From: Dictyoglomus sp.
Lineage (GTDB): Bacteria > Dictyoglomota > Dictyoglomia > Dictyoglomales > Dictyoglomaceae
Direction: 5' to 3'
Length of the DNA: 64,000 nt
Assembly: GCA_025060475.1 (NCBI GenBank)
Contig: JANXBZ010000008.1
Span: forward strand, 1-64,000
Part shown: piece by piece, positions 15,783 to 54,597 of the stretch
Layout of the letters: every line of letters begins with the position of its first letter
How positions within the stretch are numbered: the stretch's first letter is position 1
Notes under the pieces: generated by a model
Seen by the model: the letters and a program-made list of their open reading frames with translations, nothing else
Database searches by the model: none
Told to the model about the DNA's origin: nothing
Position numbers and translations under genes: made by a program

Positions 15783-16670
15783 ATGATTAAAGGGAAAGAA
15801 ATAAAAGGGATATTTATATTAACTTTAGTAACTTTAATATGGGGAAGTACCTTCTCTATGTCAAAAATATCTCTCCAGTACGTATCGCCTATAATTCTGC
15901 TTTCATTAAGATTTACTCTTGGTACTATTTCTCTTTTTGTTTATCTCTTATTTTTTTCAAAAAATAATTTTAAAATAACAAAATCAGGAATAATTTTGGG
16001 TGTTATAAATTTTTTAGCTATTGCCTTTCAAACCTTTGGTTTAAAATATACATCTGCAACAAAAACAGCCTTTATTACAGGGATCTCTGTCCTTTTTGTT
16101 CCTTTTGGTGAAAAAATTTTATTTAAGAATAAAATATCTAAAAATGTTTGGATAGCGGTAGTTTTAGCTATTTTAGGACTTTTCTTTTTAACAGTTGATT
16201 TTAAAGAGCTGTCAGAGATAAATATAGGAGACTTTTTAGTTCTTTTATGTGCTATTACCTATACATTGCAAATTCTTTTTATCTCCTATGTTGTCCATAA
16301 AGCGGATATATCTAATCTTGCCTTTGTAGAATTATTAATAACATCTCTTCTATCATGGTTCTTTGCTATTCCAGAGATATATAATTTATCTTTTGAAAAT
16401 TTAGTTTTTGCTTTTCCTCCTATTTTATATCTTGGAATAATCGCTACTGCTTTAACTTTAACTTTACAGCTTTTAGGACAAAGATATCTCTCTCCATCTA
16501 AATCTGCAATAATCTATAATCTTGAACCTGTTTTTGCTTTTTTATTTGCAAGAATTTTTTTGAATGAAAGATTAAAAATAGGGCAGGGGATAGGAGCGAT
16601 TTTAATAATTCTTTCTCTTTTCCTATCCCTGCCTCAATTTTCTATTTTAAATAAGAAGAAAAGGGGATAA
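15783..16670 (+). CDS. EamA-family (DMT) membrane transporter
   Basis: A 295-residue protein with about ten membrane helices in two repeated five-helix EamA units. The first begins TLVTLIWGSTFSMSKISLQY (the usual 'W.s.f...k' opening), and the second begins near residue 150 with LVLLCAITYTLQILFIS and ends with EPVFAFLFARIFLNERLKIGQG, the E-P-x-x-A...E hallmark. Substrates of this family are metabolites, often amino acids or nucleosides, and cannot be inferred here. Its 3' end overlaps the opposing RibU gene by 29 bases. Confidence 0.9.
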   Translation: MIKGKEIKGIFILTLVTLIWGSTFSMSKISLQYVSPIILLSLRFTLGTISLFVYLLFFSKNNFKITKSGIILGVINFLAIAFQTFGLKYTSATKTAFITGISVLFVPFGEKILFKNKISKNVWIAVVLAILGLFFLTVDFKELSEINIGDFLVLLCAITYTLQILFISYVVHKADISNLAFVELLITSLLSWFFAIPEIYNLSFENLVFAFPPILYLGIIATALTLTLQLLGQRYLSPSKSAIIYNLEPVFAFLFARIFLNERLKIGQGIGAILIILSLFLSLPQFSILNKKKRG

Positions 16671-17163
16671 CTTTAGTTAGAATATAAGTCAAGAAAGAAT
16701 TTATTCCTGCTTTTATTAAATTAAAGGGAATAATTACAGGAACTATTAAAGCCAAAACTTCTTTAACGGAAACCCCAAGATAAATTGGAGTAAATATTAA
16801 ATTTGCAATGGACATTACTCCTGCCATAGATAGAGTCCCTAATATGAGAGGGATTTCCAATTTTTTCATTCTTTTAAAGAAAAGGCCAGCAACACTAATT
16901 AAAGTTCCTGTAGCAATAAAATGCATCAGGGCACCAATGGGACCACCTTGTCCTGTAATCAATGCCATAAGAATTGATACAATTAGAGTTGCTAATAATC
17001 CTTCAAATACTCCTATATAGAGAGCAACAATTAATAAAGGAATATCTCCTGGATCGTATAAAAGATAGGAAGCTTGGGGAAGAATTGGGAAATAGATGGT
17101 GATAGATAAAATTAAGGAAATACCAGTAAACAGCGATACTAATACTAGTTTTTTAGTACTCAT
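16642..17163 (-). CDS. ribU: Riboflavin transporter, ECF S component (RibU type)
   Basis: A 173-residue, six-helix membrane protein with the layout of ECF-transporter substrate-binding components (PF12822-like). It starts MSTKKLVLVSLFTGISLILS and carries DPGDIPLLIVALYIGVFEGL in the second and third helices, a pattern typical of RibU-like proteins. The gene follows an FMN riboswitch and its terminator, which identifies the substrate as riboflavin/FMN. No energising EcfA/EcfT genes are in the window, so it would use a shared module encoded elsewhere. The 3' end overlaps the EamA gene. Confidence 0.88.
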   Translation of the reverse strand: MSTKKLVLVSLFTGISLILSITIYFPILPQASYLLYDPGDIPLLIVALYIGVFEGLLATLIVSILMALITGQGGPIGALMHFIATGTLISVAGLFFKRMKKLEIPLILGTLSMAGVMSIANLIFTPIYLGVSVKEVLALIVPVIIPFNLIKAGINSFLTYILTKVIPFSSYLK

Positions 17164-17225: not shown

Positions 17226-17251
17226 AACTTTTTCTTCTTCAAAAATTTAAG

Positions 17252-17411
17252 CTACCTTCTCCCATCCGGACTTTACCGTCGGCTCTGGATTCTCACCAGA
17301 TCTGCAAGCTTTTCGCTTGCTCGCAGGCTTAGATACCCTCTAATTAGGGTATCATCACTGCCGGTCGGGAATTGAAGGTATTAAAACCTTCTCACCCTGC
17401 CCCGAAGGTAG
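17252..17411 (-). promoter_or_regulatory. FMN riboswitch (RFN element)
   Basis: The minus strand carries the conserved RFN blocks in order: GGGGCAGGGTGA, CCGACCGGCAGT, AGCCTGCGAGC, GATCTGGTGAGA, CCAGAGCCGACGGT and AGTCCGGATGGGAGAAGG. Its closing P1 stem pairs CTACCTTC (plus 17404-17411) with GAAGGTAG (plus 17252-17259). One variable arm is an extended GATACCCT/AGGGTATC stem. The switch senses FMN and, with the terminator just downstream, should turn off ribU when FMN is plentiful. It may be read through from the degV operon or have its own promoter, which I could not find. Confidence 0.95.
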
Positions 17412-17435
17412 TTTACCTTATTTGAAGTCAATTTT

Positions 17436-44000: not shown

Positions 44001-45794
44001 ATGAAGGAAGAAATTTTAAAAAGTAATTTATATGAAAAAGCAAGTTTATTTCCTGATGCATCGGGAGTATATATCTTTAAGGATGCACAAGGGAAAATTA
44101 TTTATGTTGGAAAATCTAAATCTTTGAGGAAAAGAATTCTCTCTTATTTCAAAGAAAGCTCTCCTAAAAGTCTCCTTCTTCTCAAGAAAGCTCAGGATTT
44201 AGATTACATAATAACAGATTCTGAGACAGAAGCTTTCATATTAGAAGCAATCCTTATAAAAAAATACCGACCAATATATAATGTTCAATTAAGAGATGAT
44301 AAACAGTATCCTATATTAAAACTAACATTAAATGAACCCTTTCCTCGTTTAATAATGGTAAGAAGAATTGAAAATGACTCTGCGAAGTATTTTGGTCCTT
44401 TTCCTCAGTCAGGTACTGTAAGAGAAACTATTTCCTTAGTTAAAAAAATTTTTAATCTCAGAAGTTGTTCGTGGGATTTACCTAAAAAAGCACCTAAGAG
44501 GCCTTGTATATATTACGATCTTAAAAGGTGTTATGCTCCTTGTCAAGGATATATTTCTCAGGAAGAGTATAAGAAAATTGTTGATGAGGTTATTTTATTC
44601 TTAGAAGGTAAGTATCAAAGACTCATAGATAATCTAACAGAAAAAATGAATTCTGCAGTCTCAAATTTAGAATTTGAAAAAGCAATAAAGTATAGAGATC
44701 AAATAAAATATCTCCAAAATCTTTGGGAAAAACAGAAGATTGTTACCTTTAACAAAGAGGATAAGGATCTTATTCAAATTTATATTGAAGAAGAATCTGC
44801 TAAGGTTCTTGTTTATTTGATAAGAGAGGGAAAATTAATAGAAAAAAGGATAAATACTCTGAAGATACCTTTAGAGTATGAAAAAAAGGAAATAATATTG
44901 AGTTTTTTAACGCAGTATTATTCCCAAAGAGAAGTTCCTGATGTTGTAATTGTTCCCTTAGATTTAGGGGAAGATAAAGAAGAAATAGAAAAGTTTCTGT
45001 CCAAAAAAAGAAAAAATAAGGTTTCTATTAGAGAACCTATTGGAGAGGAAATAGAACTGTTAGAAATGGCACTTAAAGATTTAAGTATTCTTGGGATAAA
45101 AAGGGATAAAATATGGAATGAGCTATTTGAGCTCCAGAAGTTATTTAATCTAGAGAGTATTCCACTTTGGATTGAAGGATATGATATATCAAATATACAA
45201 GGTAAAGAAGCAGTAGGTTCTCGAGTAGTTTTTTATAAAGGCTTACCTTATAAAGAAAAATATAGGAGATATAAAATTAAAATAACAAATGAAGAACCAA
45301 ATGACTTTTTGATGCTTCAGGAAGTAATAGAAAGAAGACTTAAAGATACTAAAGATGAAATTTCAGATATTATTCTGATAGATGGAGGAAGAGGACAGCT
45401 TAATGCAGTCTTAGAAGTATTTGAAAGACTAAATATAAAACCAAAGTTCTTAATAGCTCTAGCAAAAAGAGAGGAAGAAATCTATATTCCGAATAGAAAA
45501 GAATCTATTAAGTTGAATAAAGATTCTCCCGCTCTTCATATATTGCAAAGAGTAAGAGATGAAGCTCATAGATTTGCCTTAAATTATCATAGAACATTGA
45601 GAACAAAAAAATTATTAGAAAGTAAATCTTTGGAAATTAAGGGATTAGGAGAAAAAAGATGGAGAATTTTAATGGAAAAATTTCAGTCCTTAGATAAAAT
45701 GAAAAAAGCCCCAAAAGAGGAATTTCTAAACATAAATGGAATTCCTAAGAGTTTAGGAGAAAGGATTTATCAATATTTACATGATCAACATTAA
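44001..45794 (+). CDS. uvrC: Excinuclease ABC subunit C
   Basis: A 597-residue UvrC. A GIY-YIG nuclease opens the protein (GVYIFKDAQGKIIYVGKSKS, residues 20-40). The UVR domain near 205-235 has FEKAIKYRDQIKYL. The C-terminal RNase H-like nuclease contains IEGYDISNIQGKEAVGS with the catalytic Asp. Tandem HhH motifs (IKGLGEKRWRILMEKF) close it. It makes both incisions in nucleotide excision repair with UvrAB, which are encoded elsewhere. It is separated from pdxS by a 70-base gap with a new promoter. Confidence 0.97.
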   Translation: MKEEILKSNLYEKASLFPDASGVYIFKDAQGKIIYVGKSKSLRKRILSYFKESSPKSLLLLKKAQDLDYIITDSETEAFILEAILIKKYRPIYNVQLRDDKQYPILKLTLNEPFPRLIMVRRIENDSAKYFGPFPQSGTVRETISLVKKIFNLRSCSWDLPKKAPKRPCIYYDLKRCYAPCQGYISQEEYKKIVDEVILFLEGKYQRLIDNLTEKMNSAVSNLEFEKAIKYRDQIKYLQNLWEKQKIVTFNKEDKDLIQIYIEEESAKVLVYLIREGKLIEKRINTLKIPLEYEKKEIILSFLTQYYSQREVPDVVIVPLDLGEDKEEIEKFLSKKRKNKVSIREPIGEEIELLEMALKDLSILGIKRDKIWNELFELQKLFNLESIPLWIEGYDISNIQGKEAVGSRVVFYKGLPYKEKYRRYKIKITNEEPNDFLMLQEVIERRLKDTKDEISDIILIDGGRGQLNAVLEVFERLNIKPKFLIALAKREEEIYIPNRKESIKLNKDSPALHILQRVRDEAHRFALNYHRTLRTKKLLESKSLEIKGLGEKRWRILMEKFQSLDKMKKAPKEEFLNINGIPKSLGERIYQYLHDQH

Positions 45795-45802
45795 AAAATT
45801 TT

Positions 45803-45840
45803 TTGACAAAATTAATCAAAAGGAGTATATGATGTATAAT
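45803..45840 (+). promoter_or_regulatory. Promoter region of pdxST-clpC operon
   Basis: TTGACA (45803-45808) and two possible -10 boxes: TATATG (45826-45831, spacer 17), or the perfect TATAAT (45835-45840) using TTAATC (45812-45817) as the -35 with a 17-base spacer. Which start is used cannot be decided by eye. A strong AAAGGAGG site lies upstream of pdxS. Confidence 0.55.
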
Positions 45841-45864
45841 CTAATTTGGAAAGGAGGTTAAGTC

Positions 45865-46752
45865 ATGGAAGTTATAGTAGGAAATGAAAAAGTAAAAAGA
45901 GGACTTGCTCAAATGTTAAAAGGAGGAGTAATAATGGATGTTACTAACGCAGAACAAGCAGAGATAGCTGAATCTGCTGGAGCTGTCGCCGTTATGGCTT
46001 TAGAGAGAGTTCCTGCAGACATAAGAGCTCAAGGTGGGGTAGCTCGTATGGCAGATCCCAAAAAAATAAAAGAAATTATGTCTGCAGTTAGTATTCCTGT
46101 AATGGCTAAGGTAAGAATTGGCCACTTTGTAGAAGCTCAAATTTTAGAAGCTCTTGGTGTTGATTTTATAGATGAGAGTGAAGTTTTAACTCCTGCTGAT
46201 GAAAAGTATCATATTAATAAACATTTATTTAAAGTCCCTTTTGTTTGTGGAGCGAGAGATTTAGGTGAGGCTTTAAGAAGAATTGCAGAGGGTGCTGCAA
46301 TGATTAGAACAAAGGGAGAAGCAGGAACAGGAAACGTAGTTGAGGCAGTAAGACATATGAGACAAATTATGGACGAAATAAGATCTTTAGCTCTTATTCC
46401 TGAAGAGGAATTGGTTACTAAAGCAAAAGAATTAGGAGCGCCTCTAGATGTCTTAATAGAAACAAAGAAATTAGGAAGACTTCCTGTGGTTAATTTTGCA
46501 GCTGGTGGTATTGCAACTCCTGCTGATGCTGCATTGATGATGCATCTTGGTGCTGATGGGGTTTTTGTTGGTTCTGGTATATTTAAATCTAAGGATCCAA
46601 AAAAGAGAGCAAGAGCAATAGTCTTAGCTGTAACATATTATAATGATCCTGAAATTCTTGCAGAGATATCTGAAGATTTAGGAGAACCTATGCATGGAAT
46701 TGATGTTAGACAACTTTCCGAAAAAGAATTACTACAAATAAGAGGTTGGTAA
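45865..46752 (+). CDS. pdxS: Pyridoxal 5'-phosphate synthase subunit PdxS
   Basis: A 295-residue synthase subunit. Substrate lysines are in [10 protein letters not shown] and [11 protein letters not shown], and the opening [20 protein letters not shown] is the family hallmark. With PdxT it builds PLP from ribose 5-phosphate, glyceraldehyde 3-phosphate and glutamine in a 24-subunit complex. It starts the long operon that runs to the right edge. Confidence 0.98.
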
Positions 46753-46757
46753 GAATT

Positions 46758-47327
46758 ATGAAGATCGGAATTTTAGCTCTTCAAGGTTCAGTAGAAGAAC
46801 ATAAGAACAGCTTAGAAAAATTAGGTATAGAAAATATATTAGTGAAGAAAGCAAAAGATTTAGATATTATTGATGGATTAATATTGCCAGGTGGAGAAAG
46901 TACTACTTTTGTACACATATTGAAAAATATGGAGATTTTTGAATATCTTAAGGAAAAAATTAAAAAAGGACTTCCGGTTCTTTCTACTTGTGCTGGTTTG
47001 ATAATTCTTGCAAAACGAATTGAGAATCATCCTGATCAAAATTCTCTAAATATCTTGGATATTACAGTTTCTCGTAATGCTTATGGGCGTCAAAGGGAAA
47101 GCTTTATAACATATCTATCTATTCCAATATTAGGAGATGAACCTTTTGAAGCAGTCTTTATCAGAGCTCCAAAGATAGTTAAAGTTGGAGAGAAAGTTAA
47201 AGTTCATGCAGTTTTTCAGGAAAATCCTGTTTTTATTGAAGAGGAAAATGTTCTTGGACTTACTTTTCATCCTGAATTAACTAATGATTTAAGAGTTCAT
47301 AAATATTTTCTTAGTAAAATTGGATAA
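46758..47327 (+). CDS. pdxT: Pyridoxal 5'-phosphate synthase glutaminase PdxT
   Basis: About 189 residues. The start [19 protein letters not shown] is the family's standard N-terminus, so ATG 46758 is chosen over an upstream TTG that overlaps pdxS. The Gly-Glu motif PGGESTT, the nucleophile Cys in [10 protein letters not shown], and the His-Glu pair in TFHPELTND are all present. It feeds ammonia into PdxS. Confidence 0.97.
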
Positions 47328-47329
47328 AA

Positions 47330-47788
47330 ATGTTTTGTCAAAATTGTGGTAAGAACCCTATTGAATTGATTATAGAAATAACGGATGGTGATAAAAGAGA
47401 AAAATTATCACTTTGTCGGCATTGTTTCAAGGATTATTATAAAAAATTTTTAAAAGATGCTTTTAAAGATTTATTACAAATTATAGAAGAGAAATTCTTT
47501 AAAGACAATGATTATTGTTTATACTGTGGAAGAAGTTGGAAAGAAATTGAGGAAAGTAAAGAGGTAGGATGTGTAAATTGTTATAAGATTTTTAGAGAAA
47601 GATTAAATGGGATTTTAGAAAAGATTTTTGGAAAGAAAAAATATAAAGGAAAAGCTCCAAAGTTATCAGGAGAAAAAAGGATGGAGATTTTAAAGAATAA
47701 GATATTACTCTCAAAAGCAATCGAAGAAGAAAATTATGAAAAAGCAGCAGAGATTAGAGATTATTTGAAAAAACTAAGAAAGGGTTGA
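47330..47788 (+). CDS. mcsA: McsA-like zinc/UVR protein
   Basis: A 152-residue protein with four CxxC zinc motifs (CQNC, CRHC, CLYC, CVNC) and a C-terminal UVR-type segment (AIEEENYEKAAEIRDYLKKL). This is the McsA architecture. In Firmicutes it activates the McsB arginine kinase and helps regulate CtsR and deliver substrates to ClpC. Here it precedes mcsB and clpC, but there is no ctsR. It begins two bases after pdxT. Confidence 0.9.
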   Translation: MFCQNCGKNPIELIIEITDGDKREKLSLCRHCFKDYYKKFLKDAFKDLLQIIEEKFFKDNDYCLYCGRSWKEIEESKEVGCVNCYKIFRERLNGILEKIFGKKKYKGKAPKLSGEKRMEILKNKILLSKAIEEENYEKAAEIRDYLKKLRKG

Positions 47789-47790
47789 AA

Positions 47791-48834
47791 ATGAATGAGA
47801 TAATATTTAAATATCTTGGATGGCTTAGAGAGAATAATCAATATAGAGATATTTTTGTGAGGACAAAAATCCGCCTAATAAGAAATGTGGCGGATTTTCC
47901 TTTTCCTAAGCAAGCAAATAATATTAAAAAGAAAGTTTTTCTAAATAGAATAGAATGGTTACTTAAAAATAGTGATGTTTTTGACGGATTTAATCTAATT
48001 TCTTTTGATAAGACTTCTTCAAAGATTAAATATTTATTTTTAGAAAAGGGCTTTCTTAATAAAGATCTTAAAGAGGATGGAAGAGGTATATTAGTTAATA
48101 AAAAAGGAGATCTTAGTATATTAATAAATGAAGATGATCATTTTCAATTGCAAAAACTCAGCTCTGGTTTTGAATTTGAAACCTCTTTTAATCAACTTTT
48201 TGAATTAGAAGACAAACTTTCAGAATACTTTAATTTTGCTTTTGATTCCCAGATAGGTTATCTTACATCTTATCTAGAAAATCTTGGATTTGGAATAAGA
48301 ATAAATTTCTGGGTTCATCTACCTGGACTATTCCAGGAAGACGAGATTTCTAAATTAGTAAAATCTTTTAGATCCTCGAGGGTACAAGTGAAAGAGGTTT
48401 ATAAAGAAGAAGATTATCCTATTGGAAATGTATTTGAGATTACTATAAACGAAGGTTTATCTACAAAAGAGCGACTTACTTCAAAAGTAAATAAGATTGT
48501 AGAAAAATTAGTAACTAAGGAGAAAGAAGCAAGAAATAATTTGTTAAGAGAAAGAAAAATTATTATTGAAGATACTGTTTATAAATCTCTAGGGCTTATA
48601 AATTATAGTAAACTTTTAAGTTTCAGAGGAGCGTGGGAATTATTATTTAATCTAAGATTAGGATCTTCATTGAATATTATATCTATTCCTTTAAAATTGA
48701 TAGACGTTCTTTTAATTTTTATTCAGCCAAATCATATTCAAATAAGATATGACAAAGAGTTAAGTTCTCCAGAAATGGAAATTTTAAGAGCAAATTTATT
48801 GCGTGATGTTTTCAAAAGTTATAAAATATCATAG
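47791..48834 (+). CDS. McsB-like protein arginine kinase, active site degraded
   Basis: A 347-residue homologue of McsB, recognised by position after mcsA and by family segments: KIRLIRNVADFPFPKQ (usually SSRxRLARN), INEDDHFQL (usually NEEDH), IGYLTSYLENLGFGIRI (usually GYLTxCPTNxGTGxR), LFNLRLG and a C-terminal LRANLLRD. Key residues look altered: the catalytic second Glu of NEED is Asp115, the CPTN loop reads SYLEN (160-164), the usual RGlYGE region lost its Arg, and the phosphoarginine-reading RDxxRA is MEILRA. It may be a pseudokinase that acts only as an adaptor. I chose ATG 47791 (AAGGG six bases upstream) over TTG 47785. Confidence 0.85.
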   Translation: MNEIIFKYLGWLRENNQYRDIFVRTKIRLIRNVADFPFPKQANNIKKKVFLNRIEWLLKNSDVFDGFNLISFDKTSSKIKYLFLEKGFLNKDLKEDGRGILVNKKGDLSILINEDDHFQLQKLSSGFEFETSFNQLFELEDKLSEYFNFAFDSQIGYLTSYLENLGFGIRINFWVHLPGLFQEDEISKLVKSFRSSRVQVKEVYKEEDYPIGNVFEITINEGLSTKERLTSKVNKIVEKLVTKEKEARNNLLRERKIIIEDTVYKSLGLINYSKLLSFRGAWELLFNLRLGSSLNIISIPLKLIDVLLIFIQPNHIQIRYDKELSSPEMEILRANLLRDVFKSYKIS

Positions 48835-48862
48835 GGAAGTGTATTGAGGAGGTGTATCTTAT

Positions 48863-51313
48863 ATGATGGATAAACTAACGCAAAGAGCATATAGGGTGCT
48901 ATTGTTAGCACAAGAGGAAGCACGACGTTTGAACTATTCCACTGTTGGAACAGAGCATATTCTATTGGGACTAATTCGCGAAGAAGGGGGAGTTGCTGCT
49001 CAGGCTCTTATTAACTTGGGTTTAGATCTTAACTATCTAAGATCAGAAATTGAACGTCTAATTGGCCGTGGAGATGGAACCTCTTATGGTGCACTTCCCT
49101 TTACTTCTCGCGCTAAAAAAGTCTTAGAATATGCATCAGAATCTGCTCAGGAACTAAATCATAATTATATTGGAACAGAACATCTTCTTTTAGGGCTTTT
49201 AAAAGAAGGAGAAGGAGTTGCTGCACATGTATTAGAAGGAATGGGTGTAAGACTAGAAGATGTGACTATCGAAATTCTAAAAATTCTAGGGGAACCTATC
49301 GAACCTCACAGATTGAGAAATAGATCCCTTTCCACATCTCGTAAGAGAAGACCTATCACTGCAACTTTAGATGAGTTTGGAAGGGATCTTACCCAATTAG
49401 CAAGACAAGGAAAATTGGATCCTATAATCGGTAGAGAGAAAGAATTAGAGAGAATAATACAAATTCTTAGTAGAAGAACTAAGAATAATCCTGTACTTAT
49501 AGGAGAGCCCGGTGTAGGAAAAACTGCAATTGTAGAAGGATTAGCCCAAAAAATTGTTATGAATGAAGTTCCTGATGTACTTTTAAACAAAAGAATTATT
49601 GCTCTTGACATGGGAACAATAATTGCCGGAACAAAATATAGAGGTGAGTTTGAAGAAAGAATGCAAAGAATTATTGAAGAAGTAAAAATGTCGAAAGACA
49701 TTATTCTATTTATAGATGAAATACATACATTAGTTGGCGCAGGAGCTGCGGAGGGAGCTGTAGATGCAGCAAATATTTTAAAACCTTCGCTTGCAAAAGG
49801 AGAAATTCAACTTATAGGAGCTACTACTCCTACCGAATATAGAAAATACATTGAAAAAGATGGTGCCTTAGAAAGAAGATTTCAACCTGTAAGGGTAATG
49901 GAACCTACATATGATGAAACCATTCAAATTCTTAAAGGGTTAAGAGAAAGATATGAGAACTTTCATCATGTTAGAATTCCTGACGAGACTATAGAAGAGG
50001 CTGTTAAACTTTCAGTGAGATATATTAATGATCGTTTTCTCCCTGATAAGGCTATTGATATCATAGATGAAGCATCTGCAAGGGTAAGACTTACAAGACC
50101 AAAGTCTTCTGCTCATAGTAATTTGGAAAGAGAATTAGAAAGGATAAGAGAACAGAAGGAAATTGCTATAAGAAATCAGAATTTTGAAAAAGCAGCTCAG
50201 TTGAGAGATGAAGAGAGAAAATTAGAAGAATATATTAGAGGCTTTTTAAATTCCTCAACCATATCCGAGAGAGTGGTAACCCCAGAAGACGTAGCACAAG
50301 TTGTGTCTGCCTGGACAGGAATACCTGTGGCTCAGTTGTTAATTGAAGAAAGAGAAAGACTCTTAAGAATGGAAGAAGAATTGCATAAAAGAATTATAGC
50401 TCAAGATGAAGCTGTAAAAGTAGTATCTAAGGCAATAAGAAGATCTCGTTCAGGAATTAAAGATCCAAAAAGACCTATAGGAGTATTTTTATTTCTTGGT
50501 CCTACAGGTGTTGGAAAAACAGAATTAGCAAGAGCTTTAGCAGAGTATCTCTTTGGAAATGAAAATGCTCTCATAAGATTAGACATGTCTGAATATATGG
50601 AAAAACATAGTGTATCAAGATTAATAGGTGCTCCTCCAGGATACGTAGGATATGAAGAAGGAGGACAATTGACAGAAAAAGTCCACAGAAGACCCTATTC
50701 AGTAGTACTTTTTGATGAGATAGAAAAGGCTCATTCAGATATCTTTAATGTATTATTGCAAATTATGGATGATGGACAATTAACGGATGGTCACGGAAGA
50801 AAAGTTGACTTTAAAAATACTATCTTAATAATGACTTCTAACTTTGGAGCAGAATACTTTAAACAGGAATCTACTCTTGGTTTTGCATCAAAGGAAGATA
50901 GGGAGAAGTCATTTGAAAAGACAAAGAATCTTATAATGAGTGAATTGAAGAAATATTTCCGTCCTGAATTTTTAAACCGTTTAGATGAAATTGTATTTTT
51001 CCATCCATTATCAAGGGATGATCTAAGAAATATTGTAGATCTACTTCTTAAACCTGTTGCAGGAAGATTATTAGAGAAAAAGATTATTCTTGAAATAGAT
51101 GAAGAAGTTAAAAACTTCTTAGTAGATAAGGGATATGATCCTTTCTATGGTGCAAGACCTTTAAAGAGAACTATTCAAAACTATGTGGAAGATCCCTTAG
51201 CAGAACTTCTTCTTGAGGGAAAATTTAAAGAAGGAGATACAATAAGAGCTGAATTAAATAAAGAAAAGAATAAAATAGAATTTAAGAAAGGATCCTTGGT
51301 AGCTAACAGATGA
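48863..51313 (+). CDS. clpC: AAA+ unfoldase ClpC
   Basis: An 816-residue Clp/Hsp100 protein. The N-terminal domain has two Clp-N repeats (TEHILLGLIREEGGVAAQAL, TEHLLLGLLKEGEGVAAHVL). AAA1 has GEPGVGKTAIVEGLA with pore loop KYRGEFE. A UVR-type middle domain contains NQNFEKAAQLRDEERKLEE. AAA2 has GPTGVGKTELARALAEY, pore GYVGYEEGG and a final D2-small domain. This is the ClpC form, which feeds ClpP and depends on adaptors such as McsAB or MecA. It has GAGGAGG eight bases upstream. No CtsR or CIRCE operator is seen. Confidence 0.97.
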   Translation: MMDKLTQRAYRVLLLAQEEARRLNYSTVGTEHILLGLIREEGGVAAQALINLGLDLNYLRSEIERLIGRGDGTSYGALPFTSRAKKVLEYASESAQELNHNYIGTEHLLLGLLKEGEGVAAHVLEGMGVRLEDVTIEILKILGEPIEPHRLRNRSLSTSRKRRPITATLDEFGRDLTQLARQGKLDPIIGREKELERIIQILSRRTKNNPVLIGEPGVGKTAIVEGLAQKIVMNEVPDVLLNKRIIALDMGTIIAGTKYRGEFEERMQRIIEEVKMSKDIILFIDEIHTLVGAGAAEGAVDAANILKPSLAKGEIQLIGATTPTEYRKYIEKDGALERRFQPVRVMEPTYDETIQILKGLRERYENFHHVRIPDETIEEAVKLSVRYINDRFLPDKAIDIIDEASARVRLTRPKSSAHSNLERELERIREQKEIAIRNQNFEKAAQLRDEERKLEEYIRGFLNSSTISERVVTPEDVAQVVSAWTGIPVAQLLIEERERLLRMEEELHKRIIAQDEAVKVVSKAIRRSRSGIKDPKRPIGVFLFLGPTGVGKTELARALAEYLFGNENALIRLDMSEYMEKHSVSRLIGAPPGYVGYEEGGQLTEKVHRRPYSVVLFDEIEKAHSDIFNVLLQIMDDGQLTDGHGRKVDFKNTILIMTSNFGAEYFKQESTLGFASKEDREKSFEKTKNLIMSELKKYFRPEFLNRLDEIVFFHPLSRDDLRNIVDLLLKPVAGRLLEKKIILEIDEEVKNFLVDKGYDPFYGARPLKRTIQNYVEDPLAELLLEGKFKEGDTIRAELNKEKNKIEFKKGSLVANR

Positions 51314-51328
51314 AAAAATGAGAATTGA

Positions 51329-52693
51329 ATGGTGAAATTAAAGATAAAGTATATTTGTCAAGTATGTGGATATGAATCTATAGGATGGCTAGGACGATGC
51401 CCTAATTGTAATACTTTCGGATCTTTAATTGAAATTAAAAAAGAAGAAAATATAATAACTGATGAAATAAAAAAAGATATAAAAACCTTTTTAATTGATG
51501 AAATAGTTTCTGAAGAAAATAAAAGATTAAAAAGTGGATTAAAAGAATTTGATGATCTCTTAGGGGGAGGTATAGTTCCTGGTTCTTTAATTCTTTTAGC
51601 AGGAGAACCTGGTATTGGAAAATCAACTTTACTTCTTCAATTAGCTTTTTCTTTAGAGGAGAGAGGATTTCCTGTTTTATATGTTTCAGCAGAAGAGTCT
51701 TTATCTCAAATAAAATTTAGAGCAGAAAGAATATCAAATACTATTCCTTCAGTAAAGTTTCTTCCTGAGAATCAATTGGAAAATATCTTAGAAGTATTAA
51801 AATCTAATAATTTTTCAGTAGTTATAATAGATTCAATTCAAACAATTTATTCTAGCAATATTTCTACTTCACCAGGAGGAGTTGTACAAGTAAGAGAATG
51901 TACTATAAATCTTATGAACTTTGCTAAAAGCACTGATACTGCAATTTTTATTGTAGGGCATATTACTAAAGAAGGAGATATAGCTGGTCCTAAAACTTTA
52001 GAACATTTAGTAGATGTAGTGTTATACTTAGAAGGGGATAGGTATCAAGAATTAAGAATCTTGAGAGCCATAAAAAATAGATTTGGTCCTACAAACGATC
52101 TTGCTCTTTATGAAATGAGAGATTCAGGACTTAAAGAAATTTTAGATATATCAAAAAAACTTTTAGAGGAAAGAAGTAAGAATATTTCTGGTTCTTTGGT
52201 GGTTCCAATTATAGAAGGAGCAAAGCCAATATTAGTTGAAATTCAATCTTTAATAAGTAGAAGTAATACTACTTTTCCAAGAAGGATTAGTATTGGCATT
52301 GATATAAACAAATTAGCTTTAATTCTTGCTATTCTTGAAAAAAAATTAAACTTAAAATTACAAGACAAAGATGTATTTTTTAATGTAGTTGGGGGAATAA
52401 AAATTAATGAGCCTGCAGTAGATTTAGGAGTTGCTTTTTCTATATTCTCTTCATATTATGATATTATATTTCCTGAAGATATGGTTGTAATCGGGGAATT
52501 GGGGTTAGGAGGAGAGGTTCGAGCGGTGGGAAATATTGAAAAAAGATTAAAAGAAGCCCAAAAATTAGGATTTAAAAAAGTAATTCTTCCTAAAACTAAA
52601 CTAGAAAAGACTTTTGATAGTCTTATATTATTTCCTATCTCAAATCTTCATGAAGGAATAAAAATTGTTTGGGGGAATAAATGGCTGAGCTAA
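51329..52693 (+). CDS. radA: DNA repair protein RadA
   Basis: A 454-residue RadA (Sms). The zinc finger CQVCGYESIGWLGRCPNC begins at residue 10. Walker A is GEPGIGKSTLLLQLA, and the RadA-specific KNRFG motif is in AIKNRFGPTNDLALYEM. The C-terminal Lon-like domain (about 280-454) includes GGIKINEPAVDLGVAF. It helps branch migration in recombination. It overlaps disA by 13 bases. Confidence 0.97.
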   Translation: MVKLKIKYICQVCGYESIGWLGRCPNCNTFGSLIEIKKEENIITDEIKKDIKTFLIDEIVSEENKRLKSGLKEFDDLLGGGIVPGSLILLAGEPGIGKSTLLLQLAFSLEERGFPVLYVSAEESLSQIKFRAERISNTIPSVKFLPENQLENILEVLKSNNFSVVIIDSIQTIYSSNISTSPGGVVQVRECTINLMNFAKSTDTAIFIVGHITKEGDIAGPKTLEHLVDVVLYLEGDRYQELRILRAIKNRFGPTNDLALYEMRDSGLKEILDISKKLLEERSKNISGSLVVPIIEGAKPILVEIQSLISRSNTTFPRRISIGIDINKLALILAILEKKLNLKLQDKDVFFNVVGGIKINEPAVDLGVAFSIFSSYYDIIFPEDMVVIGELGLGGEVRAVGNIEKRLKEAQKLGFKKVILPKTKLEKTFDSLILFPISNLHEGIKIVWGNKWLS

Positions 52694-53739
52694 AGAAATT
52701 TGCTATTGGTGCTATTAAAACTGTTGCTCCTGGAACCCAATTGAGAGAGGCTTTAGAACAAATATTAAAAGCTAAGACAGGAGCTCTTATAGTTATTGGT
52801 GATTTAGAAAAGATTAGACCATTAATGAATGGGGGTTTTCCTTTAGATATTGATTTTTCCCCTAATAAACTTTATGAACTTTCAAAGATGGATGGAGCTA
52901 TTATTTTAAGTAAAGATTGTAAAAAAATTCTTTTCGCAAATGTTATTCTTCTTCCAGATTCTAATATTCCGTCCCAAGAGACAGGGGCAAGACATGCAAC
53001 TGCAGAAAGAGTAGCGCGACAAACAGGACAATTAGTTATTAGTGTATCCCAAAGAAAAGATACTATTACTCTTTATCAAAATGACTGGAAATACATATTA
53101 AGAGATGTAGAAGAAATTTTAGCAAAAGCAACACAAGCTCTACAGACTTTAGAAAGATATAGAAGTGTATATGATGAATTTCTTCAGAGATTAAACGCTT
53201 TAGAGATAGAAAATCAAGTTACTCTTTTAGAAGTTCTTTTATTCTTGCATAGAATGGGAATGCTTTTAGCTATAGGAAAAGAGGTAGAAAATTATCTTAT
53301 TGAATTAGGCTCAGAAGGAAGATTAATAGAACTTCAGCTTGAGACTTTGTTAGCAGGAGTTTCTGAAGAAGGACTTTTAACAGTAAGAGACTATTCAAGA
53401 ATTAATGAAGATTATGAGAATGTTTATAAAAATCTTTTAAATAACTTTAAAGGAGATTTTCAAAGTTTTTCTATAATTGCTGGAGAAATAATGGGTTATA
53501 CAAAAAAGGAAATTGAATTAAATATTACTGTTGTTCCACGAGGATATAGACTTTTAAGTAGATTATCTTTTATTCCTAATAATATTATGGAAAATCTTGT
53601 AAAACATTTTGGTGTTTTGCCGCGAATTCTTGAAAGTTCTGTAGAAGATCTTGATAATATTGAGGGAATAGGGGAGGTGAGAGCAAAAAGGATTAAAGAA
53701 GGTTTAATAAGACTTCGAAAATCTGCTTTAATCATTTAA
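52681..53739 (+). CDS. disA: Diadenylate cyclase DisA, with altered RHR motif
   Basis: A 352-residue DisA. The DAC domain has DGAIIL at residues 71-76 and ETGARHATAERVARQTG at 100-116. The usual RHR triad reads RHA (104-106), so the second Arg that contacts ATP is replaced by Ala. A helical linker and a C-terminal HhH DNA-binding domain follow (VEDLDNIEGIGEVRAKRIKE). In other bacteria DisA scans DNA and makes c-di-AMP. It overlaps radA, as in Firmicutes. Confidence 0.94.
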   Translation: MAELKKFAIGAIKTVAPGTQLREALEQILKAKTGALIVIGDLEKIRPLMNGGFPLDIDFSPNKLYELSKMDGAIILSKDCKKILFANVILLPDSNIPSQETGARHATAERVARQTGQLVISVSQRKDTITLYQNDWKYILRDVEEILAKATQALQTLERYRSVYDEFLQRLNALEIENQVTLLEVLLFLHRMGMLLAIGKEVENYLIELGSEGRLIELQLETLLAGVSEEGLLTVRDYSRINEDYENVYKNLLNNFKGDFQSFSIIAGEIMGYTKKEIELNITVVPRGYRLLSRLSFIPNNIMENLVKHFGVLPRILESSVEDLDNIEGIGEVRAKRIKEGLIRLRKSALII

Positions 53740-53787
53740 TTTTTGTTTATATTCCTTTTATATATTTTTTTGGAGGAATGATTTTTT

Positions 53788-54597
53788 ATGAAAAAAGAAG
53801 TGAAGTTATTATTAGCAACAAATGTTTTTCCTTTTTTAGGTTTAGTTATTATATCTTTATGGAGCATATTTGGGGGAAATAAGAATGTGTCCTTATATTT
53901 AACACTATTTTTTTTCTTCCTTTTTGTTTTAGGTTTTTATCTTTTTTACATTAAAAGGGGAATTTTGTCTGATATTTTTAATTTTCCATCGGTAAAGATT
54001 TTAGATACCAGTGTGATTATTGATGGAAGAATTGTAGATATTTTGAAAACTAATTTTATAGAGGGTAAGATTGTAATTCCTCGTTTTGTACTAAAAGAAT
54101 TGCAACAATTAGCGGATTCTTCAGAGTCTCTAAAAAAGAACAGAGGAAGATATGGCTTAGATAATTTAAGTAAGATAAGAAAAGAATTAGAGGATCAAGT
54201 AGTAATTATGGAGAAAGATTTTGCTAATATTCATAGTGTGGATTCAAAACTTGTAAAACTTGCAAAGATGTTAAATGGAAAAATAGTCACAAATGATTAT
54301 GGATTAAACAAATTAGCAAAAATAGAAGGAATAACTGTTTTAAATATAAACGAATTGGCTAATGCTCTAAAACCTATTTATTTACCAGGAGAAGAATTAC
54401 AGTTAAGTATACTTAAAGAAGGAAAAGAAGTAGGACAAGGGGTAGGATATTTAGAAGATGGAACTATGGTTGTGGTTGAGAATGGAAGAAAATATATTGG
54501 TTTTACTGTGAAAGTTGTAGTAACAAGTGTTTTCCAAACTGCTGCAGGAAGGATAATTTTTGCAAAAATAAAAGAGGAAAAGAAACTTGGACAATAA
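53788..54597 (+). CDS. PIN-TRAM domain membrane protein (YacL-like)
   Basis: A 269-residue protein. Two N-terminal membrane helices (about 8-28 and 34-53) are followed by a PIN nuclease domain opening [18 protein letters not shown] (catalytic Asp), and then a C-terminal TRAM RNA-binding domain (about 210-265). The order after radA and disA and before ispD is that of B. subtilis yacL. The role is likely RNA cleavage at the membrane but is not established in detail. GGAGGA is the ribosome-binding site. Confidence 0.92.

Follow-up and report, generated by a model that had tools for sequence, protein, structure and literature searches.

A putative McsB pseudokinase in the mcsA–mcsB–clpC operon of a hot-spring bacterium related to Dictyoglomus

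The mcsA–mcsB–clpC locus

The window, i.e., the complete stretch of 64,000 nucleotides analysed here, derives from a hot-spring bacterium related to Dictyoglomus, whose genome (G000) has a size of 1.72 Mb and is 99.6% complete. Positions 44001–54597 of the forward strand carry a collinear series of uvrC-like, pdxS, pdxT, mcsA, mcsB, clpC, radA, disA, and PIN-domain-like genes, the order of which matches the sister genus as far as disA; some of these gene names are backed by a family search, and the others are presumptive assignments from the sequences. The genes upstream of mcsA (45865–47327, +), which we take to be pdxS and pdxT, are in synteny with the sister genus, and their ORFs were matched by BLAST to genomes of the genus and of the Dictyoglomus side. 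mcsA (47330–47788, +) encodes 152 amino acids with four CxxC zinc cysteine pairs and a UVR motif, all intact. The mcsB homologue (47791–48834, +, stop codon included) begins 2 nt past the mcsA stop and encodes 347 amino acids from an ATG at 47791 with no internal stop, a TTG two codons upstream being also possible as start. It is followed after a further 28 nt by clpC (48863–51313, +; 816 amino acids), with radA and disA beyond. The operon arrangement of mcsA, mcsB, and clpC is thus present, and the statement of the first-pass annotation that mcsB is flanked by intact mcsA and clpC holds. Elsewhere in the window, an FMN riboswitch (RF00050, 106 bits) lies at 17250–17413 (−), upstream of the minus-strand ORF 16642–17163.

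The ORF product matched the phosphagen kinase domain PF00217 (E = 9e-34), and its best PDB match was Geobacillus McsB (6fh1, E = 8e-44; also 8gqd, E = 2e-33). An AlphaFold (AF2) model had a mean pLDDT of 95.2 and a pTM of 0.91 and was aligned by Foldseek to B. subtilis McsB (6tv6) with a TM-score of 0.93 and to McsB of the McsA complex with a TM-score of 0.84, in line with the earlier claim that the fold segments remain. The NCBIfam protein arginine kinase equivalog scored 249.5 bits against a cut-off of 385. We rejected NCBIfam cut-offs as an activity test because the kinase-intact sister also falls below (342 bits), while a Chlamydia-like McsB without any scored catalytic residue passes NF002191 (L203 copy, 548 bits against 381). 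By predicted fold and operon the protein is a member of the McsB family, and by its defining residues it is placed outside the arginine kinase class.

Degeneration of the active site and loss of ywlE

Residues were called from an alignment to Geobacillus McsB and 102 active McsBs. Nine catalytic positions were scored, in arginine kinase numbering R124, R126, H185, E225, R229, C271, R280, R309, and E314; the roles of Arg280 and His185 are those generally assigned in arginine kinase. Roles of Glu225, Glu314, Cys271, Arg124, Arg126, Arg229, and Arg309 follow PMC11075012. Only three of the nine are kept in the window McsB, namely the equivalents of R126 (R28), R280 (R170), and E314 (E206), and alignment to characterised McsB and to orthologues from the family did not restore an active-site set. 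At residues 24–28 (47860–47874, +) SSRIR is replaced by RTKIR, in which the first ATP-phosphate Arg (R124) is Lys26 and the second (R126) is retained. EKH reads EKG at residues 85–87 (48043–48051, +), with Gly87 in place of the adenine-site His (H185), and NEEDHxR reads NEDDHFQ at residues 113–119 (48127–48147, +), with Asp115 for the catalytic Glu (E225) and Gln119 for the phosphate-binding Arg (R229). The SCPTN loop is SYLEN (residues 160–164; 48268–48282, +), its catalytic Cys (C271) being Tyr161 and its Thr Glu163, while VRGxYGE (VRGTYGE in Geobacillus) has become VKEVYKE (residues 200–206; 48388–48408, +), with Lys201 for the Arg (R309), Glu202 for the Gly, and the second catalytic acid (E314) kept as Glu206. 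The allosteric phosphoarginine (pArg)-binding motif RDxxRA (RDVRRA in Geobacillus), which corresponds to the pArg-receptor residues R337/D338 of B. subtilis (PMC8370763), reads MEILRA at residues 329–334 (48775–48792, +). The first-pass annotation had named Asp115, the SYLEN loop, the missing Arg of RGxYGE, and MEILRA, each of which the alignment to Geobacillus McsB bears out; the replacements by Lys26, Gly87, and Gln119 go beyond that reading.

Seven Dictyoglomaceae genomes were compared: the window genome, its congeners G001 and G002, and four genomes of the sister genus on the Dictyoglomus side (G003–G006). All nine catalytic positions are kept in the four Dictyoglomus-side genomes, compared with one to three in the three genomes of the genus. 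Gone from all three are the Arg of SSR (Lys), the His (Gly), the Arg of DHxR (Gln), the catalytic Cys (Tyr or Ser), the Arg of RGxYGE (Lys or Val), and the RD of RDxxRA (MEILRA, MEILRA, and IEILRA), and each of the three has acquired a Glu in the CPTN loop. G001 has Asn at the sites of both catalytic acids (NENDH, YKN), so that the position of Glu206 is not conserved either and no acid is invariant among the three proteins. Asp115, which opened the earlier argument, is the least telling sign of kinase loss, because its site is D, N, and E within the genus. Among 56 positions that are at least 90% conserved in the 102 active McsBs, the same 20 are lost in all three genus members, compared with 6 on the Dictyoglomus side. 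Chance or sequencing error was rejected as the source of these losses because three species have them in common. The seven Dictyoglomaceae sequences group together in the McsB tree (SH-aLRT 96) and the three degenerate ones form one clade (100); by this topology, the predicted loss of the kinase is therefore placed within the Dictyoglomaceae, at the base of the genus.

The arginine phosphatase gene ywlE is present in all four kinase-intact genomes and absent from all three degenerate ones. Searches with PF01451 matched a single protein in each genome of the genus and two proteins in most genomes of the sister genus. The extra protein of the sister genus is YwlE, with the signature C(T/S)GNTCRSPMAE and B. 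subtilis YwlE (4kk3, E = 5e-26) as best PDB match. Kinase-intact genomes carry ywlE between sua5 and rpiB, presumptive names assigned from the sequences, and at this junction the gene is cleanly deleted in all three genus genomes (L044, L045, L046) as compared with the sister locus L047. The junction is otherwise collinear with G003, comprising three upstream genes that end in the Sua5-type gene, rpiB, and two genes after it. The remaining PF01451 protein of the genus is of ArsC type (signature CTHNSARS), although its TIGR02691 score of 136 bits is below the curated cut-off of 174; it was rejected as a substitute eraser, as the sister genus has its orthologue in addition to YwlE. Because the kinase is damaged and ywlE deleted in the same three genomes, the writer site and the eraser of phosphoarginine were lost together in one lineage.

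A second arginine kinase of the PF00217 family as replacement was rejected: the family was single-copy in all seven genomes by profile search, and therefore no second member exists there. CtsR, the absence of which the first-pass annotation had counted in favour of a rewired system, is missing from every one of the seven genomes, also from those four that have an intact kinase and YwlE, while it was detected in the control Lactococcus lactis. Being absent on either side of the kinase-loss split, it is uninformative on the change in kinase and ywlE, and this argument was dropped. The phosphoarginine pockets of the ClpC N-terminal domain were likewise rejected as a readout of system loss, since the domain hardly differs between the two genera; perhaps they are kept because MecA and similar adaptors, as well as the resting state of ClpC, also make use of them (PMC12583610).

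Genus mcsB is under purifying selection. A Goldman-Yang codon model gave an omega of 0.097 (2ΔlnL against omega 1 = 229), compared with 0.065 for sister-genus mcsB, and pairwise omega between G000 and G001 was 0.10–0.19; these values are rough because synonymous sites are near saturation against G002, but that they lie well away from 1 is certain. mcsB is nevertheless the fastest-evolving among eight neighbouring genes (NG86 omega), which is consistent with some relaxation. Each of the three species has a full-length copy of the gene, although identity falls as low as 52%. Of the positions conserved in the sister genus, 77 vary in the genus, 32 are fixed there to another residue, and 73 have one and the same residue on both sides. 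The gene thus combines lineage-wide loss of catalytic residues with purifying selection, the two features by which we recognise a pseudokinase. Together with the deletion of ywlE and the intact predicted fold, they uphold the earlier pseudokinase call, and arginine kinase activity of the genus McsB has very probably been lost. Decay of a functionless gene kept by operon position alone, to which the rapid evolution of mcsB and its 77 newly variable positions could be assigned, is highly improbable given the full-length reading frames, the low omega, and the 32 differently fixed and 73 unchanged positions.

Putative function of the McsB pseudokinase

Genus McsB resembles the kinases of B. subtilis, Geobacillus stearothermophilus, and Staphylococcus aureus in its position after mcsA and before clpC, its two-domain fold (TM-scores of 0.90–0.93), its McsA-contact loop, and its dimerisation domain. 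Unlike these it is without the catalytic Cys, the catalytic Glu, the ATP-site Arg and His, and the RDxxRA pArg pocket, and its genomes are without ywlE and ctsR, although a YwlE beside McsB kinases is typical rather than universal. The McsB of the sister genus Dictyoglomus has 38–41% identity to genus McsB, lies in the same operon, and is also without ctsR, but it has all nine catalytic residues, an intact RDxxRA, and ywlE in the genome.

Active McsB marks damaged proteins by arginine phosphorylation, YwlE takes these marks off again, and ClpC belongs to the machinery that degrades proteins. The gene is preserved beside its usual partners and therefore probably encodes a non-enzymatic helper of ClpC. 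With its kinase site, pArg site, and ywlE lost, we consider it most likely that this pseudokinase is a non-catalytic, McsA-linked scaffold or adaptor of ClpC, a combined reading that we hold as probable. In the genus ancestor, the active site and the allosteric pArg site would have been lost and ywlE deleted, and cells of the genus would no longer write or erase pArg via McsB and YwlE. The pseudokinase would have retained the McsB fold, the McsA-contact loop, and the operon position, would form the usual complex with McsA that binds ClpC without phosphorylation, and could either bring misfolded substrates to ClpC or set or gate its activity. The McsA zinc finger uses a loop of McsB to position the catalytic Cys (PMC12467219). 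The equivalent of this loop, FDSQIGY (residues 151–157; 48241–48261, +), is retained in genus McsB although the Cys is gone, and the partnership with McsA is predicted, with good confidence, to persist. ClpP is encoded in all seven Dictyoglomaceae genomes, and the retention of McsA, ClpC, ClpP, and the loop would fit the rewiring to pure adaptor work that the first-pass annotation had suggested. A positive adaptor function as such is somewhat better than an even bet. A working model is offered by MecA and MdfA, phosphorylation-independent adaptors that attach to the ClpC N-terminal domain and thereby activate ClpC without pArg (PMC12583610); the likeness would be one of mode of action only, and no sequence similarity is claimed. 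The resting state of ClpC is relieved by partners that bind its N-terminal domain, which MecA does without pArg (PMC12583610).

In B. subtilis, activation of ClpC and substrate delivery by McsB are reported to need McsB kinase activity (PMC5506225), so that a kinase-free adaptor would depart from the known system. Either a bypass of this dependence evolved in the genus, or its McsB would be a brake or an McsA stabiliser. That the pseudokinase delivers no substrates and only stabilises McsA, or keeps ClpC or McsA inactive in the manner of ClpC-bound McsB in unstressed B. subtilis, is the strongest of the alternatives, albeit an unlikely one. The conserved loop and operon agree with it, as does the finding that McsB of unstressed B. 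subtilis is ClpC-bound and translationally coupled to ClpC (PMC5506225), whereas a brake and an adaptor are equally compatible with the purifying selection and with the complete fold being kept. Less probable still, and in our view improbable, is an enzyme in disguise, i.e., a divergent arginine kinase that works via Asp115 and Glu206, or else a transferase whose chemistry or substrate is new. Arginine kinases mutated in only one catalytic base retain part of their activity, Asp115 could in principle be the base, Glu206 and Arg170 are still in place, and several Arg sites are occupied by Lys. Such an enzyme would nevertheless have to operate without any acid invariant in the genus, with both acids Asn in G001, with the Cys and the equivalents of Arg229, Arg124, His185, and Arg309 replaced throughout, and without ywlE. 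The pseudokinase may still bind nucleotide, given the remaining Arg28, Arg170, and Glu206 and several exchanges of Arg for Lys.

The kinase and adaptor roles of McsB in helping ClpC have been difficult to tell apart, since the second requires the first in B. subtilis (PMC5506225). A natural McsB without kinase site that occurs with McsA and ClpC, next to a sister genus with an active kinase, makes this question directly testable.

Degenerate McsB in other bacterial groups

Among 389 diverse genomes surveyed, 146 had a PF00217 match, and the nine catalytic positions were scored in 147 genomes. The distribution was two-peaked: 106 genomes keep eight or nine positions, and 32 with readable alignment keep at most five. 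Flanks were read at 20 low-scoring loci (19 degenerate and G031, with 7/9). There, mcsA was adjacent or fused at 19 and clpC next door at 8. In two genomes, McsA and degenerate McsB are fused in one protein of 541–558 amino acids (L213:5268–6944, G119; L212:4846–6471, G243), which would support a permanent McsA–McsB complex without catalysis; these fusions also lend weight to the stabiliser alternative, as they suggest that what has been conserved is the binding of McsA. Like genus McsB, the degenerate McsBs elsewhere keep zero to five catalytic positions, adjoin mcsA, retain the McsA loop, and mostly lack the YwlE signature. They differ in lying on separate branches of the McsB tree, and the Chlamydia-like mcsAB are away from clpC. 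Parsimony gave seven independent losses, a rough count as several branches of the tree are long, and similar loss of the kinase seems, as far as residues tell, to have occurred among several further groups of bacteria.

None of the nine catalytic positions is kept in the Chlamydia-like McsBs (L203:5314–6384 and L204:5185–6270; G241 and G352, genomes of 1.0–1.1 Mb). The gene order at L203 is rpsB-tsf-pyrH-frr-tRNAs-mcsA-mcsB-tRNA-secretin, with the tRNA order recurring at L204, which fits the tRNA-flanked mcsAB reported for Chlamydia (PMC10128030). Annotation of these proteins as protein arginine kinase is probably wrong as to activity, in contrast to the planning of an McsB-directed phosphoproteome in Chlamydia work (PMC11708050).

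The YwlE signature was detected in 65 of the 106 genomes with intact McsB and in 3 of the 32 with degenerate McsB (Fisher p = 1.3e-7; p = 1.5e-6 without Dictyoglomaceae), counts that are to be read against a genome background of about 9% for this short signature (reversed control) and many real YwlEs missed. A phylogeny-aware test had four independent supported pairs, with 2.1 pointing the same way and 0 the opposite way (p = 0.5), and the link between YwlE absence and degeneracy is suggestive only because phylogenetically independent contrasts are too few. No account of McsB pseudokinases came up in the literature searched, which comprised open-access papers and is for this reason weak evidence of absence.

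We give an even chance to the possibility that McsA and pseudo-McsB constitute a recurrent, phosphorylation-independent ClpC adaptor module that arose several times, Chlamydia included, and often without YwlE. If so, many proteins annotated as protein arginine kinase would be non-kinases; presence of McsB is not to be equated with presence of arginine phosphorylation. As a second supported case in the McsB tree, the G184 sequence (L080; 5/9, RRRERNRNK) pairs with the intact McsB of G062 (SH-aLRT 96), and the YwlE signature occurs in neither genome.
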